DNA from: Nonomuraea sp. SYSU D8015
Lineage (GTDB): Bacteria; Actinomycetota; Actinomycetes; Streptosporangiales; Streptosporangiaceae
Direction of reading: 5' to 3'
Assembly: GCF_008065375.1 (NCBI RefSeq)
Contig: NZ_VJYI01000037.1
Location: forward strand, 1 to 64,000
Length of the DNA stretch: 64,000 nt
In this document: piece after piece, positions 49,061 through 57,478 of the stretch
Layout of the letters: each line of letters starts with the position of its first letter
Position numbering within the stretch: the stretch's first letter is position 1
Notes under the pieces: generated by a model
Seen by the model: only the letters and a program-made list of their open reading frames with translations
What the model was told of the DNA's origin: nothing
Databases searched by the model: none
Program-made: the position numbers and the translations under genes

Positions 49061-50341
49061 GTGAAGTTCCGTATCGCAACATCTGCCCTGCTCGCCACAG
49101 CCCTCGCCCTCTCCGCCGCCGCCTGCGGAGGGGGCGGCGGCACCGCGGCCCAGCCGTCCGGCGACGGCAAGTCCTTCGAGTTCTGGTCGTTCACCGGGAT
49201 CAACCAGAAGGAGTCGGTCGACAAGTACCAGAAGCAGAACCCGGGAGTGCAGGTCAAGCTGACCGAGGTGGGGGGCTCCACGGAGACCGCACAGGCCCTG
49301 ACCACGGCGCTGGCCGGCGGCAAGGTGCCGGACCTCGTCCTCATCCAGGGTGACGACCTGCCCAAGTTCGTGCAGCAGCCGCAGAACTTCCACGACCTGC
49401 GGCAGTTCGGCGCGGACAAGATCAAGGGCGACTACCTGGACTGGGTGATCAGCCAGAGCACCACCAAGGGCGGCGAGATCATCGGCATTCCGACGGACGT
49501 GGGCGGCATGGCGGTGGCCTACCGCACGGACCTGTTCAAGGAGGCCGGGCTGCCGACGGACCGGGAGGAGGTCGGCAAGCTCTGGCCGACCTGGGACGCC
49601 TTCATCGAGACCGGCAAGAAGTACACCGCGGCCACCGGCAAGGCGTTCGTCGACAACGCCGCCACCAGTGTGTTCTACCAGGCGGTCAACCAGGGGCCGA
49701 TGAAGTACTACGACCCCTCGGGCAACGTCGTCTACAGCACGAGCCCTCAGGTCAAGACCGCCTTCGACCTGGCGATCAAGACGGTGCAGGCCGGGATCAC
49801 GGCCAAGCAGAGCTCGTTCTCCGACGGCTGGAGCGCGGGCATGGGCAAGGGCCAGTACGCGGTGATCTCCGCGCCGGCGTGGCTGCTGTCACAGATGGAG
49901 CGGAACGCCCCCGACACCAAGGGCAAGTGGGACATCGCCGCCATTCCCGGTGGGGCCGGCAACTGGGGCGGCAGCTACTTGGCCATCCCCAAGCGCGCCA
50001 AGAACCCGAAGGCCGCCTGGGACTACATCACCAAGACCCAGTCCCCGCAGGCCCAGCTGCAGCACTTCGTCGACACGGGGAGCACGATGCCCACCACTCC
50101 ATCGGTCTACAAGGACCCGAAGCTCACCGGGCTGAAGAACGAGTTCTTCTCCGGAGCGCCGACCGGGGTGATCTACACCAACTCGCTGACCGGACTCAAG
50201 CCGTTCCTCGTCGGCCCGGACAGCGCCGTCATCGGCCAGGAGTTCCTGAACGCGATCACGAACGTGGAGCAGGGCAAGGGCGACGCCGCCAAGGCGTGGG
50301 ACGCGGCGCTGGCCAACATCAAGACCGCCATCGGCAAGTAG
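49061..50341 (+). CDS. Sugar ABC transporter substrate-binding lipoprotein
   Basis: A 426-residue CUT1 binding protein with a Sec signal and lipobox LSAAAC (Cys22). Mature part: SFEFWSFTGINQKESVDKYQKQNPGVQVKL, PDLVLIQGDDLPKFV, VGGMAVAYRTDLFKEAGLP, KWDIAAIPGGAGNWGGSYLAIPKRAKNPKAAWDYI. GTG start at 49061 with AGAAGAGAT upstream. Cellobiose/oligosaccharide-binding type by style; ligand not proven. No ATPase in the operon. Confidence 0.9.
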   Translation: MKFRIATSALLATALALSAAACGGGGGTAAQPSGDGKSFEFWSFTGINQKESVDKYQKQNPGVQVKLTEVGGSTETAQALTTALAGGKVPDLVLIQGDDLPKFVQQPQNFHDLRQFGADKIKGDYLDWVISQSTTKGGEIIGIPTDVGGMAVAYRTDLFKEAGLPTDREEVGKLWPTWDAFIETGKKYTAATGKAFVDNAATSVFYQAVNQGPMKYYDPSGNVVYSTSPQVKTAFDLAIKTVQAGITAKQSSFSDGWSAGMGKGQYAVISAPAWLLSQMERNAPDTKGKWDIAAIPGGAGNWGGSYLAIPKRAKNPKAAWDYITKTQSPQAQLQHFVDTGSTMPTTPSVYKDPKLTGLKNEFFSGAPTGVIYTNSLTGLKPFLVGPDSAVIGQEFLNAITNVEQGKGDAAKAWDAALANIKTAIGK

Positions 50342-50348
50342 GACCGGC

Positions 50349-51302
50349 GTGACGACCACTCTCAGCACGCCGCGGGCGGCCGGTGCGCCGCCCGCGGCCA
50401 CGACCCGGGTGCGGCAGGGCATCGGCGAGCGCCTCGCCCCGTACGCCTACATCGCGCCGTTCTTCCTGATCTTCGCGGTGTTCGGCCTGGTGCCGCTGCT
50501 GTTCACGTTCTACGTGGCGCTGTTCGACTGGAACCCGATCGGCGAGCACATCTTCATCGGCCTGGACAACTTCACCCGCCTGCTCGACGACGCCCGGTTC
50601 TGGAACGCCGCCTGGAACACCATCAGCATCTGGCTCCTGTCGACCGTGCCGCAGCTGCTGCTGGCGCTGGGCCTGGCGCACCTGCTCAACCACGCCCGGC
50701 TGCGGTTCGCGGTGTTCTTCCGGATGTCGATGCTGGTGCCGTACATCACCTCGGTCGCGGCCACCGCCATCGTCTTCGCCCAGATGTTCGACCGCGACTA
50801 CGGTCTGCTCAACTGGTTGCTCGGGCTGGTGGGTGTGGAGCCGATCGACTTCAAGCAGTCGGTGTGGGGCAGCCACCTGCTCATCGCCGTGATGGTCACC
50901 TGGCGCTGGTTCGGCTACACGACCCTGCTGTATCTGGCCTCGCTGCAGGCCATCCCGCGCTCGCTGTACGAGGCCGCGGCGGTGGACGGCGCGGGCGGCT
51001 GGAAGCAGTTCCGCCACATCTCCATCCCGTCCCTGCGGCCGGTCATCGTGTTCACGATCGTGACCTCCACGATCGGCGGGCTGCAGATCTTCACCGAGCC
51101 GCTGCTCATCTCCCGGGTCGCGGCGCAGACCTGCGGGGCGGTCCGCCAGTGCCAGACGCTCACGCTCTTCCTGTACGAGCAGGGCTTCGGCCAGTTCCAG
51201 TTCGGCTACGGCGCCGCCATCGGCGTGGCGCTGTTCGTCCTGATCATCGCCTTCGCCGCGCTCAACTACGTCCTGTCCACCCGCGTCCGCCCGGAGCGCT
51301 GA
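50349..51302 (+). CDS. Sugar ABC transporter permease, MalF-like
   Basis: A 317-residue permease: PYAYIAPFFLIFAVFGLVPLLFTFYVALFDWNPIGEHIFIGLDNFTRLL and the EAA loop SLYEAAAVDGAGGWKQFRHISIPSLRPV. A Cys pair in AAQTCGAVRQCQTLTLFLYEQGF is typical of the cellobiose-type CebF relatives. GTG start 7 bp after the binding protein stop. Confidence 0.92.
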   Translation: MTTTLSTPRAAGAPPAATTRVRQGIGERLAPYAYIAPFFLIFAVFGLVPLLFTFYVALFDWNPIGEHIFIGLDNFTRLLDDARFWNAAWNTISIWLLSTVPQLLLALGLAHLLNHARLRFAVFFRMSMLVPYITSVAATAIVFAQMFDRDYGLLNWLLGLVGVEPIDFKQSVWGSHLLIAVMVTWRWFGYTTLLYLASLQAIPRSLYEAAAVDGAGGWKQFRHISIPSLRPVIVFTIVTSTIGGLQIFTEPLLISRVAAQTCGAVRQCQTLTLFLYEQGFGQFQFGYGAAIGVALFVLIIAFAALNYVLSTRVRPER

Positions 51303-52129
51303 TGAACAAGGCCAACCGTGTCCGCTGGTGGACCTATCTCCTCCTCGGCCTGGCCGTTTTCGCCTGCCTGTTCCCGCTGTACTGGATGTTCGTGGTCGCC
51401 AGCACCGACAGCGCGACCGCCACCCAGATGCCGCCCGAGATCGTGCCCGGCGGCAACTTCTTCCACCTGGCCGGGCTGGTCCTCGAGACGGTGCCGTTCG
51501 TCAGCTCGATGGTCAACAGCCTCATCGTGGCCGGAGCCATCGGGGTCGGGCACGCGGTGCTCTGCTCGCTGGCCGGCTTCGCCTTCGCCAAGCTGCGCTT
51601 CCGCGGGCGCAACGCGTTGTTCCTGATCGTGGTGCTGACCATGACCGTGCCGACCCAGCTCGGGGTGATCCCGCAGTACATGATCATCTCTGCGCTGGAC
51701 TGGGTGGACACCCTGCAGGCGCTCATCGTGCCCGGCCTGGCGAGCGCGTTCGGCATCTTCTGGATGCGTCAGCACATCGGGGCCACGATCAGCGACGAGC
51801 TCCTCCAGGCGGCCCGCATCGACGGGGCGACCACCTGGCAGATCTTCTGGCGCATCGCGTTCCCGCTGGTCCGGCCGGCCGCGTTCGTGATCGGCCTGCT
51901 CGGCTTCGTCACCGCGTGGAACGACTTCCTGTGGCCGTTCATCGTGCTGAAGTCGCCCGAGATGTACACCGCGCAGATCGCGATCAAGGCGCTGCAGAAC
52001 AGCTTGGACATCGATCTCGGGCTCGCCATGTCCGGCTCGTTCCTGGCCACTCTGCCGCTGCTCTTGCTGTTCGTGTTCGTCGGCAGGCGGATGGTCGCCG
52101 GGATCATGGACGGCGCCTTCAAGGGCTGA
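51302..52129 (+). CDS. Sugar ABC transporter permease, MalG-like
   Basis: A 275-residue permease: FPLYWMFVVASTDSATATQMPPEIVPGGNFF, SLAGFAFAKLRFRGRNALFLIVVLTMTVPTQLGVIPQYMII, EAA loop ELLQAARIDGATTWQIFWRIAFPLVRPA, ending RRMVAGIMDGAFKG. ATG overlaps the previous stop by one base. A short AGGGCT/AGCCCT hairpin just after the stop may help end the transcript. Confidence 0.92.
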   Translation: MNKANRVRWWTYLLLGLAVFACLFPLYWMFVVASTDSATATQMPPEIVPGGNFFHLAGLVLETVPFVSSMVNSLIVAGAIGVGHAVLCSLAGFAFAKLRFRGRNALFLIVVLTMTVPTQLGVIPQYMIISALDWVDTLQALIVPGLASAFGIFWMRQHIGATISDELLQAARIDGATTWQIFWRIAFPLVRPAAFVIGLLGFVTAWNDFLWPFIVLKSPEMYTAQIAIKALQNSLDIDLGLAMSGSFLATLPLLLLFVFVGRRMVAGIMDGAFKG

Positions 52130-52149
52130 CCAGCCCTCAGTCCAGGCCC

Positions 52150-53007
52150 TCAGTACAGGATGGAGGGGAGGTACGCGCCCGCGGGCTCGTTGTACAGGCC
52201 GATGGTCATCAGGCTCATGAGCAGGACGACCCGCAGGCCGTTGCCCAGGCACCACTGGAGCAGCGCGCTGTTGCGCGCGGGGACCAGGATGCCGAGCCCG
52301 CCGAACGAGAGGGCCGAGCCGATGAGGGCCTTGACGTCCTCGGTGGTCTCGCCCACCGCGTGCGCGAAGAGCGCCAGGTCCGTGGCGTAGCCGGTCAGCC
52401 GGCCGTCGTGCTCGACGACGCGGGCCGTGCCCAGCTTGAGCGCGTCGGCGACCTCCCCGCCGCGATCGACACCGTGGACGCGGCGGCACAGGTCGTTGCA
52501 GGCCGGCAGGTCCGCGTCCGTCGCCGGGCGCACCGCGTGGCCGTCGATGCCCTGGTGCGGCGGAGTGCCCTGCAGGCAGGCCAAGGTTTCCCTGAACTCG
52601 AAGCCGAGGCCCGCGTACAAGGCGAAGGACCTGCAGTGATAACCGCTTTGCAGGAGCCGGATGCCGGGCGCCTGACGGTCGGCGGCGCGGTGCATGACGT
52701 TCTGCATGAGCGTGCGGCCGATGCCCTGGTTCTGGACCGCCGGATCGACGGTGATGGGGCCCACGCCGACCACCGGCGAACGTTCGTCCAGGAAATTGCT
52801 GCCGGCGATGCGTCCGTCGAGCTCGGCGACGACGCTGTAGAAGCCCGGGTGGGCCAGCAGTGTCGAGATCGTCTCGATCGCGACTCCCACGCTGGGGAAG
52901 TCGTGCGGGAAGCCATGGGCGTCGGCGAGAGCGGCGAAGCTCTCGTAGCAGATCCTGCCGCATTCACGCGCGTCGTCCGCGGTTCCGGCGCGCAGTACGA
53001 GATCCAT
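52150..53007 (-). CDS. GNAT-family N-acetyltransferase
   Basis: A 285-residue protein. The acetyl-CoA motif is VDPAVQNQGIGRTLMQNVMHRA (Q-N-Q-G-I-G), with GSNFLDERSPVVGVGPI before it and SFALYAGLGFEFRETLACLQG after it. The C-terminal half (from about residue 160) resembles a second, degenerate GNAT unit. I use ATG 53007 (MDLVLRAG). Acetyl acceptor unknown. Convergent with the ABC operon. Confidence 0.85.
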   Translation of the reverse strand: MDLVLRAGTADDARECGRICYESFAALADAHGFPHDFPSVGVAIETISTLLAHPGFYSVVAELDGRIAGSNFLDERSPVVGVGPITVDPAVQNQGIGRTLMQNVMHRAADRQAPGIRLLQSGYHCRSFALYAGLGFEFRETLACLQGTPPHQGIDGHAVRPATDADLPACNDLCRRVHGVDRGGEVADALKLGTARVVEHDGRLTGYATDLALFAHAVGETTEDVKALIGSALSFGGLGILVPARNSALLQWCLGNGLRVVLLMSLMTIGLYNEPAGAYLPSILY

Positions 53008-53310
53008 GGAAATCACCCCCGTGCCCGGCCGCTTCCTCCATCAAATCACCAGGTCGGGGGAGAGGTTGTGCCGGGGCTGGACCCGCTCCTTTCACGTGAC
53101 GGCCGGGGAGGGGAGGATGGGGCGCCCGGGCGTCTGCCTCCCACGCGAGCGCGGCTGACGGGCGCGGGGGGCGAGTGCGGGGGAGCGCGGCGAGCGGGCG
53201 CGTTCGCCGGTGCGCCGGATGACGGGGGTGCGGCACCGGTCGCCCCCAGACGACGGCTGGGGCGCCAGGGGTCAGCACGCACCCCCGCCCGCTCCGGGCG
53301 GCGCTACGTC

Positions 53311-53415
53311 CGGCTCCGTCACGTCCGGCTCCGTCACGTCCGGCTCCGTCACGTCCGGCTCCGTCACGTCCGGCTCCGTCACGTCCGGCTCCGTCACGTC
53401 CGGCTCCGTCACGTC
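53311..53415. repeat. 15-bp minisatellite, seven perfect copies
   Basis: CGGCTCCGTCACGTC is repeated seven times without change (105 bp), preceded by a partial copy and followed by degenerate copies such as CGGCCCGGCCATGCC and CGGCTCCGTCACGCC to about 53490. As the period is a multiple of three, it would encode pentapeptides (RLRHV, TSGSV, APSRP or, on the other strand, TEPDV, GRDGA). Confidence 0.95.
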
Positions 53416-53586
53416 CGGCCCGGCCATGCCCGGCCATGCCCGGCCCGCCACGCCCGGCCCCGCCATGCCCGGCTCCGTCACGCCCGCGCCGCTCCCCGCC
53501 ACGCCCGGCGCGGCGTGCCACGTTCGGCGAGGGGTCGTCCGGCCGACCGTGTCTACCCTGGCCCACCGCCTGTCATGCCGTGCCGC

Positions 53587-53640
53587 GTCGGCCTGCTGTG
53601 GGGCGTCGGCCTGCTGTGGGGCGTCGGCCTGCGGTGCGGC
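53587..53640. repeat. 18-bp tandem repeat, three copies
   Basis: GTCGGCCTGCTGTGGGGC occurs twice exactly (53587-53604, 53605-53622), then once as GTCGGCCTGCGGTGCGGC. It lies 68 bp beyond the GH29-like gene stop. Confidence 0.9.
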
Positions 53641-53708
53641 GTCGGGCCTGTCGTGCCAGCCCACGGCGGGCGGTGCGTTGCGTCGAGCCGGGGCACGAGG
53701 TGGAGGCG

Positions 53709-56700
53709 TCAGCCGAGTGAGATGCGGTCCAGGTCTGGGGCCGGGGCCGTGTCGTTGTGGAGTTTGATGGTGTTGGGGCCGGAGCGCAGGGTGACGGGGA
53801 CGGATGTGGTGTAGGGCCGGTTGTTGCCGACGCCGGTCACCTTCACCTCCACCGGTGTCCCGCCGTTGACGGTCAGGAAGTACGAGCGGTCGCCGTTCAC
53901 CGTGAAGTCGATGAACAGCGTGTACTGCCGTGCCTCGCCCACCGTGACGTCCTCGAACAGCACGTACGCGTCCGGCCCGCCGCCGAGGTTGCGCACCTTC
54001 TGCCCGCCTGAGCAGGCGGAGCAGTTCGTGATGCCGGCGCTGCCGATCTGGTTCCCGGAGTCCTCCGCCTCCCGCACGAACACGCGGTCGACCGGGCGCG
54101 GCCGGATCCGCAGCTGCCGCGTGACCGTGTTCGCCCGCCCCAGCACCTGGAACGACGCCGTGATCGGGACGTCGGTCGCCGTCACGTCCTGGCCGGGCGG
54201 CGAGGTCAGCGTCCACGTGCCCGTCAAGGTCTGCCCGAGGCGCAGCGCGTCCGCGGTGGCCGGGCCGCCATCCACCGACCATCCCGCGGGCGCGTCCGGG
54301 GCCAGTGAGACGCGGTCGAGCACGTCGTCGGCGTCGAGCCGCAGCGTCGCCGACACCTTCAGCGACTGCTGTCCGGGGCCCACCCACTGCAGGCCGGAGG
54401 GGTCGACCGTCATGGTCGTCTTGGGCACGGACGAGGCCGGCGGCATCGGCGCGACCGCGACCCGGTCGACCCCCGGCCCCTTGGCGGCCGTGCTGAACAG
54501 CGTGATCGTGTTCGCCCCCGCGCGGAGCGGGACCGGCAGCGCGGTTGAGGCGGGCACGCCCGCGTTGTCCCCGGCGACCCGCACTTCGACCGGGGCGGCA
54601 CCGTTGACGGAGACCGACAGGGACGCCGCCGTCGGGGTGGCCTCTGACGCGCCCGGGCTCGCGGCGGCCTCCGATGCGCCCGGGCCCGGGGCGGCTTCCG
54701 ATGCCGCCGAGTCCGGGGCAGCCTCCGAGGATGCCCCCGCGTCCGGCGCGACACGCGATGCACCCGAGTCCGGCGCGGTGTGGTCGAGCTGCAGGCGGTA
54801 GTCGCCTGCCGTGGGTACCGTGACCTCCCGGTACATGACCGCGTTACGCGGTCCGCCGCCGAGCCCGGTCACCTTCGCCCCGCCCGAGCAGGCCGGGCAC
54901 GGCTCGGCCCGCGCCGCGCCGGAGCGCTGCTGCCGCTCGGCCTCCAGCGGCACCGGCACTCCGGAGGCGCGCGGGTAACCGTACGCGACCCTGATCTCGT
55001 CGATCTGGAGCTGCCGGTGGAAACGCGGCGCCTGCGGACCGGCCCAGGTGTTCAGCACCTCCAGCTTGATGTAGCGGGCGTGCTGCTCGCCGAGGTCGAT
55101 CATCTGCACGCCCCGGGCGCTGCGCAGCGCCCCGGAACGCACCGGCGTCCCCCACCGCCTGCCGTCGTCGCTCACGTAGACGCGGTAGTCCTTGATCCGC
55201 GCCGAGTCCTCCGGCCGGCCGAACGTCTCCCGCGCGTACGTCGGCGACCACTCGCGCTGGTTGACCGCCAGATAGGCGGCCTTGCGCGGGCGGCCCAGGT
55301 CCAGCGTCACCGAGACCGGCAGCCGGGCTCCGCTGTCCCAGTAGTCCTGGAAGCTGCCGTCCACGAGGGCGGCGGCCGGGTGCTCCGCGTGTGACGAGGA
55401 CGCGGTGGCGCGGATCGTGGACTGGTCGTGGAAGTGCTGCTGCCCGGCCGTCTCGACCTTGAACACGGTGTCGTACGGGTCCCACCGCGTGATGCCCAGG
55501 ATCGTCAGGTGCCCGCCGGACTGGCTGAAGCGCATCCGCTCACCGGTACGCAGGTCGCTCACCCGGGTCACGCGGTAGCCGTTGTCCCGGAGCGTGACCA
55601 GGTCGGTGCTGGGCCTGGTCACCACGTGCACGTACTGCACCTTCGCGCCGCCCCGCCGGACGGTGACGACGCCGTGCGCGCCGTCGTTCCAGAAGCCCGG
55701 CTGCATGCCGCCGTACAGGTAGCCGCCGCCCTCCGTGCCCTGGAGCGACTCCTTGATCGGCGGGACCCACGTGGACATGAAGGCGTTGAAGGCCTCCTGC
55801 TGGGGCGGGAACCTGCCGTTCACCATGGGTGTCTGGGCCATCAGCGACTTCATCGACGAGCCGGCGTTGGCGATGTAGCGGCCGGTGCTGAGGCGGACGT
55901 CGACGGGGTGGTCGCCGCCGTCGTACCACCAGTCGCCGGTGGTGGGCAGCTTGTAGTCGGCCTCGACCAGGCGCGGCATCGGGGTCCATGCGGCCTGCGG
56001 GTAGTCGTACGGCGGCGTCATGCCGGTCTTCTGCTCGTTGCTGACCGTGTCCATGATCGGGGTGTCCTCGTTGTTGTTGCTCAGCAACCAGGACGGCCGC
56101 CGCTCCCGGATCTGCTCGTAGAGCTTGTTCTGCTCCCAGTACTCGTTGTCGTTGTCGATCCAGAACCCCGCCAAGTCCGGATATTTCTCCATGACCTCGA
56201 AGAACAGGTCATAGCTGTACATGCCAAACCCGGCGCGGGTCGTCAGATCGACCTGCCGGCCCTTGTGGGCCGAATATGCGGCCGAGTCGAGCGTCTCGAC
56301 GCCCTGCTCGTCGTGCCACTGCGGGTCGTCGGTCATGTAGAGGATGATCCGGACGTCCTTCGCCTTCCCGGCTTTCACCAGCTCGCCGAGGAAGTCCCGC
56401 CGGGTGGCGCAGCTCCCGGGGATCTCCGACGGCCACGGGCGCGCGTACCCGAGCCTGCTGTGGAAGGTGGCCAGCACGATGTACGAGGCGCCGAGCTTGC
56501 GGGCCTCGTCCACCCAGTAGCCGGCGGTCCAGCCGCCCTCGGTCACGGCGCGTTCCCAGGTCGCGCAGTCCAGGTGGCGCGGCGCGGTGAACATGCCCCA
56601 GTGCAGGAACAGGCCCGCCGTCGAGTCGCGTAACCACTGCTGCCGGGGATGCTCGACCTCCGCGCGGGCGGCCGGAGCCGTGAGCAGGGCCGCGATCACG

Positions 56701-56744
56701 GCGAGGGTCAGGACGACGGAGAAGGTGCGGACTCGAAGTCTCAT
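53709..56744 (-). CDS. Secreted GH29-like (alpha-L-fucosidase) multidomain enzyme
   Basis: A 1,011-residue exported protein. Signal peptide 1-28 ends in ARA. The catalytic barrel (about 35-430) has [59 protein letters not shown] and [11 protein letters not shown] with Asp197 at the place of the GH29 nucleophile, although the usual WFDG wording is altered. Then an F5/8 type C (CBM32) module with [37 protein letters not shown] and [11 protein letters not shown], a CBM35-like module ([16 protein letters not shown]), a NEW3-type module ([15 protein letters not shown]) and a last CBM35-like module ([16 protein letters not shown]). It probably releases fucose or a related sugar from polysaccharide. 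ATG 56744 follows GGGTGG. Confidence 0.8.
54625..54785 (-). repeat. Ala/Ser/Pro/Glu-rich repeat insertion inside a CBM35-like module
   Basis: Between [11 protein letters not shown] and [15 protein letters not shown] the protein has about 45 residues made of repeats like ASEAAP ([21 protein letters not shown]). In the other CBM35-like module of the same protein this position is a short turn ([15 protein letters not shown]). At DNA level it is a degenerate GC-rich array. Confidence 0.7.
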
Positions 56745-56856
56745 GGGACCACCCATCGACGGGACATCCGATGAATATGTCAGGGGTTGCGCGGTGTCAA
56801 GGCCACTTCACGCCGCTCTTGACGCGCCGTTAGGTGAGTGGTCCTATGACTTACAA

Positions 56857-56871
56857 TAGGAAAGTTTCCTA
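56857..56871. promoter_or_regulatory. Perfect palindrome at the secreted-protein promoter
   Basis: TAGGAAAGTTTCCTA has 7-bp perfect arms around one base. It begins on the last base of TACAAT (56852-56857), a good -10 box with TTAGGT (56830-56835) 16 bp upstream, so it covers the transcription start of the gene at 56885. It also lies 113 bp before the divergent GH29-like gene. Confidence 0.75.
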
Positions 56872-56884
56872 ATCAGGAGAAGAG

Positions 56885-57478
56885 ATGCGATTAGTGCTCG
56901 TCGGCGCGGCGGCGATCGGGCTGCTCGCTCCAGCCGTGGCGGCTCTGCCCGCCTCGGCCGATCCTGTGGAGTCAGGCCCGTGGACGTCGTACTCGCCGAC
57001 GTTCACCGTGCAGGAGCGCGGGTGCGGTGACGTCAGCGACCTGACGTTCCGGCTGACCTGCTCCACGTCCAGCGGCGACCAGCGGGCCGAACGGCGCTAC
57101 GCCACCTACTCCGGCGGCACCCGCCAGTTCGAGGGCCACTTCCGGATCACCAGCCTGGAGGGGACCCGGATCAGCCTGAAGCAGACGTTCAAGACGACCG
57201 GGCCGTTCTTCATGCTCGCCGTCGAGCGCGGCGGCCGGTTGTACGCCGTGCACGGCGGCACCACGATCGCCACGGGCGCGACCGTCGGCACCACGGTGCG
57301 CGTCAACACCGTGCACGTGGTCGGCAGCAGCCATCGGACGTACGTCAACGGGTCGCTCAAGCACACCGTGTCCAGCGAGAGCGGCAGCTTCTACGACAAG
57401 TTCGGCGCCTACCGGACCAACAGCGGCCAGGGCCCGGCGACGGTTCAGTGGAGCGGCATCCGGTTCTGGCGGAAGTAG
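56885..57478 (+). CDS. Small secreted beta-sandwich protein, lyase/lectin-like
   Basis: A 197-residue exported protein with signal peptide to about residue 26 (LPASADP). The mature part has GCGDVSDLTFRLTCSTSSGDQRAERRYATYSGGTRQFEGHFRI, two Cys, and RISLKQTFKTTGPFFMLAVERGG, a pattern of long beta strands resembling polysaccharide-lyase or concanavalin-like jelly rolls. No catalytic residues can be named. AGGAGA precedes ATG 56885, and the promoter has a palindromic operator. Divergent from the GH29-like gene, so both may act on the same extracellular polysaccharide. Confidence 0.65.
   Translation: MRLVLVGAAAIGLLAPAVAALPASADPVESGPWTSYSPTFTVQERGCGDVSDLTFRLTCSTSSGDQRAERRYATYSGGTRQFEGHFRITSLEGTRISLKQTFKTTGPFFMLAVERGGRLYAVHGGTTIATGATVGTTVRVNTVHVVGSSHRTYVNGSLKHTVSSESGSFYDKFGAYRTNSGQGPATVQWSGIRFWRK

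Follow-up and report, generated by a model that had tools for sequence, protein, structure and literature searches.

The gap of about 0.7 kb that separates two neighbouring genes of Nonomuraea sp. SYSU D8015 raises the question of what a run of identical 15-bp repeats represents there: a former linker of the enzyme gene beside it, a new coding repeat, or a non-coding minisatellite, the three options left by a first-pass annotation of the locus. Our analysis is anchored on a window of 64,000 nucleotides, the whole stretch of DNA under study, and draws on further sequence from the same genome and from relatives. The features on which the argument turns are the following.

52150 to 53016, minus strand: GNAT-family acetyltransferase gene (Pfam PF00583, E=6.2e-10), starting at GTG 53016 or ATG 53007.
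53017 to 53708, no strand: intergenic region without conservation among the relatives examined; no frame scores above 0.11 bits per codon in 120-base windows centred outside the 15-bp array.
53306 to 53419, no strand: 15-bp array, seven perfect copies of ACGTCCGGCTCCGTC plus 9 bases; an exact period-15 stretch (TRF score 228, 100% match).
53420 to 53486, no strand: decayed continuation of the 15-bp array in variant copies, from 15-mer matches and a TRF period-45 row at 53306–53486.
53585 to 53650 (TRF extent), no strand: 18-bp array of GCGTCGGCCTGCTGTGGG, two perfect and two imperfect copies, found by TRF; exact stretch 53585–53632.
53709 to 56756, minus strand: GH29-like enzyme gene (Pfam PF01120 alpha-L-fucosidase, E=1.2e-11; also F5/8 type C, CBM35 and NEW3 domain matches).

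The seven perfect 15-bp repeats reported between the GH29 and GNAT genes are present exactly as described. The period-15 stretch amounts to 7.6 copies at 100% match, and thus has the head-to-tail short units (about 10–60 bp) of high identity that characterise a minisatellite. Its TRF score of 228 exceeds chance, the top score over 60 random 64-kb sequences drawn from an order-3 Markov model of the window being 83. Variant 15-bp copies extend to about 53480, and the imperfect 15-mers that start at 53411, 53450 and 53465 (12, 12 and 13 of 15 matches, respectively) are an older portion of the same array. Since perfect copies adjoin decayed ones, the recent expansion proposed in the first-pass annotation is a fair inference. 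Its 18-bp "triplet" repeat also exists, but three full copies is slightly generous, as the third carries 2 changes; the fourth is decayed, and this array is weaker than the 15-bp one.

On the sequence comparisons set out below, the 15-bp array is very probably a non-coding intergenic minisatellite, private to the species or lineage, and it is this option among the three that the evidence favours. The array lies between two clear genes, both on the minus strand, with coding signal absent around it and about 290 bp between it and the GNAT start. An Rfam scan of 50000–57000 returned nothing at gathering thresholds, RNA folding of the whole gap was no better than that of shuffled sequences (z +1.8, matched by 20 of 20 shuffles), and promoter and terminator scans of 52900–53900 found none, such scans being of little value in an actinomycete.

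It is very unlikely, in our assessment, that the array encodes part of a small or new minus-strand protein built of TEPDV repeats, either as an ORF at 53272–53502 or in a longer form from 54387. Five of the six frames are indeed open across the array, as first noted, the closed one being the GH29 frame, which reads RSRT* with a TGA in every unit. Over the array, the TEPDV frame peaks at 0.63 bits per codon (120-base windows; one plus-strand frame reaches 0.30), and at 3.78 bits per unit it is the sole clearly positive minus-strand frame, with gene-like codon usage and a rate comparable to that of the flanking genes. The periods of 15 and 18, both divisible by three, would also fit a coding reading. 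Because one unit is repeated, however, the score of the array is a single independent observation of five codons. The same best-of-six score is reached by 15% of 7,775 non-coding 15-mers from the same genome and by 8.6% of 20,000 permuted units; when non-coding 15-mers of this genome are tiled, at least five frames stay open in 89% of cases.

Several observations speak against such a protein. No coding signal continues over the flanks of the array: the TEPDV frame scores at most 0.03 at window centres 53480 and beyond on the GH29 side and falls below zero at 53300, while the 18-bp array is below zero in this frame and reaches just 0.10 in one plus-strand frame. The TEPDV frame coincides with that of the GNAT gene but stops at 53272, before the GNAT start. 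Our home-made gene caller, which was trained on the window and in which arrays add to the score of their ORF, places a weak 76-aa ORF of 24 bits over the array; among 169 ORFs of at least 50 aa outside called genes in the window, 28 score that high, this one included, although the 28 may include real genes, and two of them lie at the window ends. None of the three ORFs covering the array has a Pfam match at E≤0.001, and the gap lacks conservation among the relatives examined. The coding hints are weak, and the option of a new coding repeat is not supported, though it keeps a low probability.

The weight that the period itself can bear was examined in a census of tandem arrays over 729,687 bases of the same genome (TRF score at least 70, combined with the home-made gene caller). 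The census takes contig C1 as its first 400 kb; contigs C3, C17, C18, C23 and C35 were taken from earlier array matches and contribute the stretches without those matches, and the window and three loci containing matches to the array (L064, L069 and L073) lie outside it. It yielded 65 arrays, of which 28 are intergenic, 33 coding and 4 straddling. Periods divisible by three were found in 14 of the 28 intergenic arrays versus 32 of the 33 inside called genes (Fisher p=3.4e-5), so that a period of 15 is hardly informative on coding. As one half exceeds one third, some intergenic arrays of the census may be missed coding sequence, a point that counts on the side of the coding reading. Intergenic periods vary widely (14, 15, 16, 18, 30, 43, 75 and others), and three intergenic arrays score at least 200, which by extrapolation to 12.4 Mb would give about fifty. 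Genome G009 has 3 intergenic and 7 coding arrays in 200 kb, a count that rests on 10 regions with L085–L094 left out. The 15-bp array thus looks like an ordinary minisatellite, one of many arrays, with other units, in this genome.

Three strong intergenic arrays with units differing from the 15-bp one, at L065:11680–11779 (16 bp, 6.2 copies at 100%), L039:16601–16779 (30 bp, 6.0 copies at 96%) and L043:3169–3324 (14 bp, 11.1 copies at 90%), are possible strain-typing markers.

Used as a query, the gap retrieves GC-rich arrays of a similar kind at other loci, and many of the matches listed include a period-15 row. Fourteen such loci were examined in context (3 from the same genome and 11 from others, with periods of 12 to 45; L021, L026, L027, L030 and L034 were left out), and 11 of them lie within called ORFs, the exceptions being L002, L019 and L031. 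This count favours the TEPDV protein, and because of it a coding origin keeps a probability, albeit a low one. A genus-wide family of 15-bp arrays was also considered and rejected as a product of query selection, given the varying periods of the census and the 11 of 14 loci in called ORFs. At one locus of a relative, L022, a 45-bp period array of 6 copies at 95% match (1385–1670) lies inside a called 284-aa ORF, and a 15-bp row with 16 copies overlaps it.

Coding linker repeats of secreted enzymes have a period divisible by three and a Pro/Gly/Ala-rich or acidic translation. The array shares these properties; unlike such linkers, which are in frame and joined to the flanking gene, it lies downstream of the GH29 stop and in a different frame, and a TGA in each unit closes the GH29 frame itself. 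The array is not part of the GH29 product. We regard it as highly improbable that it is the remnant of a coding linker, derived from the GH29 end or from another gene that has been lost from the gap, even though its unit has a gene-like codon pattern. The GH29 protein ends where its counterparts in 7 of 8 relatives end, give or take one residue; this normal ending, together with the difference between the TEPDV and GH29 frames, speaks against the former-linker option, and the lack of Pfam matches in the three ORFs over the array likewise argues against a linker from a lost gene. The unit is, moreover, confined to a single locus of the genome, with no second copy or donor found there: a 20-mer of the array has 7 exact matches, all inside the array, and the closest sites elsewhere differ from it at 2 positions. 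A two-unit 30-mer has 0 exact matches in the GTDB r220 contigs, a set that may omit records close to the window's own genome; when up to 3 mismatches are allowed, it is present in 1 of the 53 other genomes searched from the genus.

The GH29 gene also contains a coding repeat of its own, an in-frame 27-bp array at window positions 54632–54728, within a 46-residue insert that is located where the Pfam CBM35 match ends and is absent in 6 of 6 relatives aligned. By this alignment, the insert is a predicted lineage-specific coding tandem expansion.

What the linker remnant has in its favour is the history of the junction. GNAT orthologues at E≤1e-80 occur in 3 of the 53 other genomes of the genus and align from residue 2 or 3. 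At these 3 GNAT loci and at 8 GH29 loci of relatives, long DNA similarity stops within about 20 bases of the gap-facing gene end. GNAT similarity is absent from the flanking sequence covered in all 8 GH29 loci (1.5 kb, but just 67 bases for L015), and GH29 similarity in the three GNAT loci is limited to a 40-base match. Genome G016 has both genes, among the matches listed, on different contigs, with GNAT on a contig of 10.6 kb. G016 is classed in the same genus as the window's genome, and its contig C237 proved identical, in one orientation, to NZ_VCKY01000313.1 of Nonomuraea turkmeniaca DSM 43926. A tblastn search at 1e-8 placed a GH29 relative near GNAT in 0 of 80 loci of named genomes, several of whose contigs are short. 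Because the pair was nowhere found side by side in the relatives examined (among the matches listed), the junction is best read as rearranged.

By sequence comparison, the gap appears not to be conserved among the relatives examined. The 289 bases from GNAT to the array have just short weak matches, in 21 of the 53 other genomes, and the search for a protein common to relatives at the gap position, proposed earlier as a check, found none at the loci examined. The three orthologous GNAT loci (L006, L008 and L010) have no TRF rows within 1.5 kb on each side. In a scan of 31 of the 80 loci (L117–L147; 30 of the 31 valid, the start of L147 being set wrongly), 4 have arrays scoring at least 80 in the 1.5 kb upstream of the GNAT start (L118, L120, L122 and L139), with periods of 9 to 42, none of them 15. 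Downstream of GH29, arrays with other units were found in 1 of 8 relatives (L009). A 45-base low-complexity match that joins the decayed array (53467–53509) to the interior of the L011 GH29 gene is taken as compositional.

The non-coding minisatellite would have arisen by tandem duplication of a GC-rich segment of the spacer, and would then have been lengthened and homogenised through replication slippage or unequal recombination, so that the seven identical copies may form its fresh end and the mutated copies its older one. Because the unit carries the palindromes ACGT and CCGG, either strand is predicted to fold on itself when single-stranded, and such hairpins may favour slippage; in single-strand DNA folding of the array, the two strands give z values of -2.2 and -3.0, equalled by 5 and 1 of 200 shuffles. 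We infer both slippage as the mechanism and the absence of function; the array can be accounted for without a product or a regulatory role. Copy-number variation between strains, which had been expected from the perfect identity of the copies, is plausible; the genome sets searched hold one genome per species. Gene birth from the minisatellite, in which the expanding array would open a TEPDV-repeat frame with host-like codons and translation would begin, for example on GH29 read-through transcripts, is a far-fetched prospect on present sequence evidence.

A cluster of iteron-like protein-binding sites acting on the GNAT gene, as identical short repeats upstream of its start might suggest, is scarcely credible, given that the three orthologous GNAT loci have no array and their genomes no unit pair, that single sites are not enriched in this genome (with up to 3 mismatches allowed, 20 lie beyond the perfect copies, including one in the decayed part of the array, versus 14 for a reversed control pattern), and that a 15-bp spacing alternates helix faces.

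No published account of this array was found among the titles and abstract openings of the literature, and the closest parallels come from surveys of bacterial repeats. A satellite survey (PMC6749651) lists Streptomyces coelicolor, with 38 satellites, among the richer bacteria, holds that many short-repeat satellites arise locally via duplication errors, and reports that transposition of non-coding satellites is rare. The array resembles the short-unit satellites described there in its unit of the 10–30 nt class, its short total length and its locus-specific sequence. In that survey, periods that are multiples of three go mainly with coding repeats, whereas the array here has a period of 15 without good evidence of coding. 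As in the constant-length tandem repeats described from Bacillus (20–21 or 52 nt; PMC8161180), the sequence of the arrays differs from place to place; unlike those repeats, the intergenic arrays of this genome vary in period and have no constant unit length.

Taken alone, the array matters little, beyond a possible use in strain typing. Where the GC content is this high, a period that is a multiple of three and five open frames carry little weight as evidence of coding: such periods occur in 14 of the 28 intergenic arrays, and at least five frames stay open in 89% of the tiled non-coding 15-mers.
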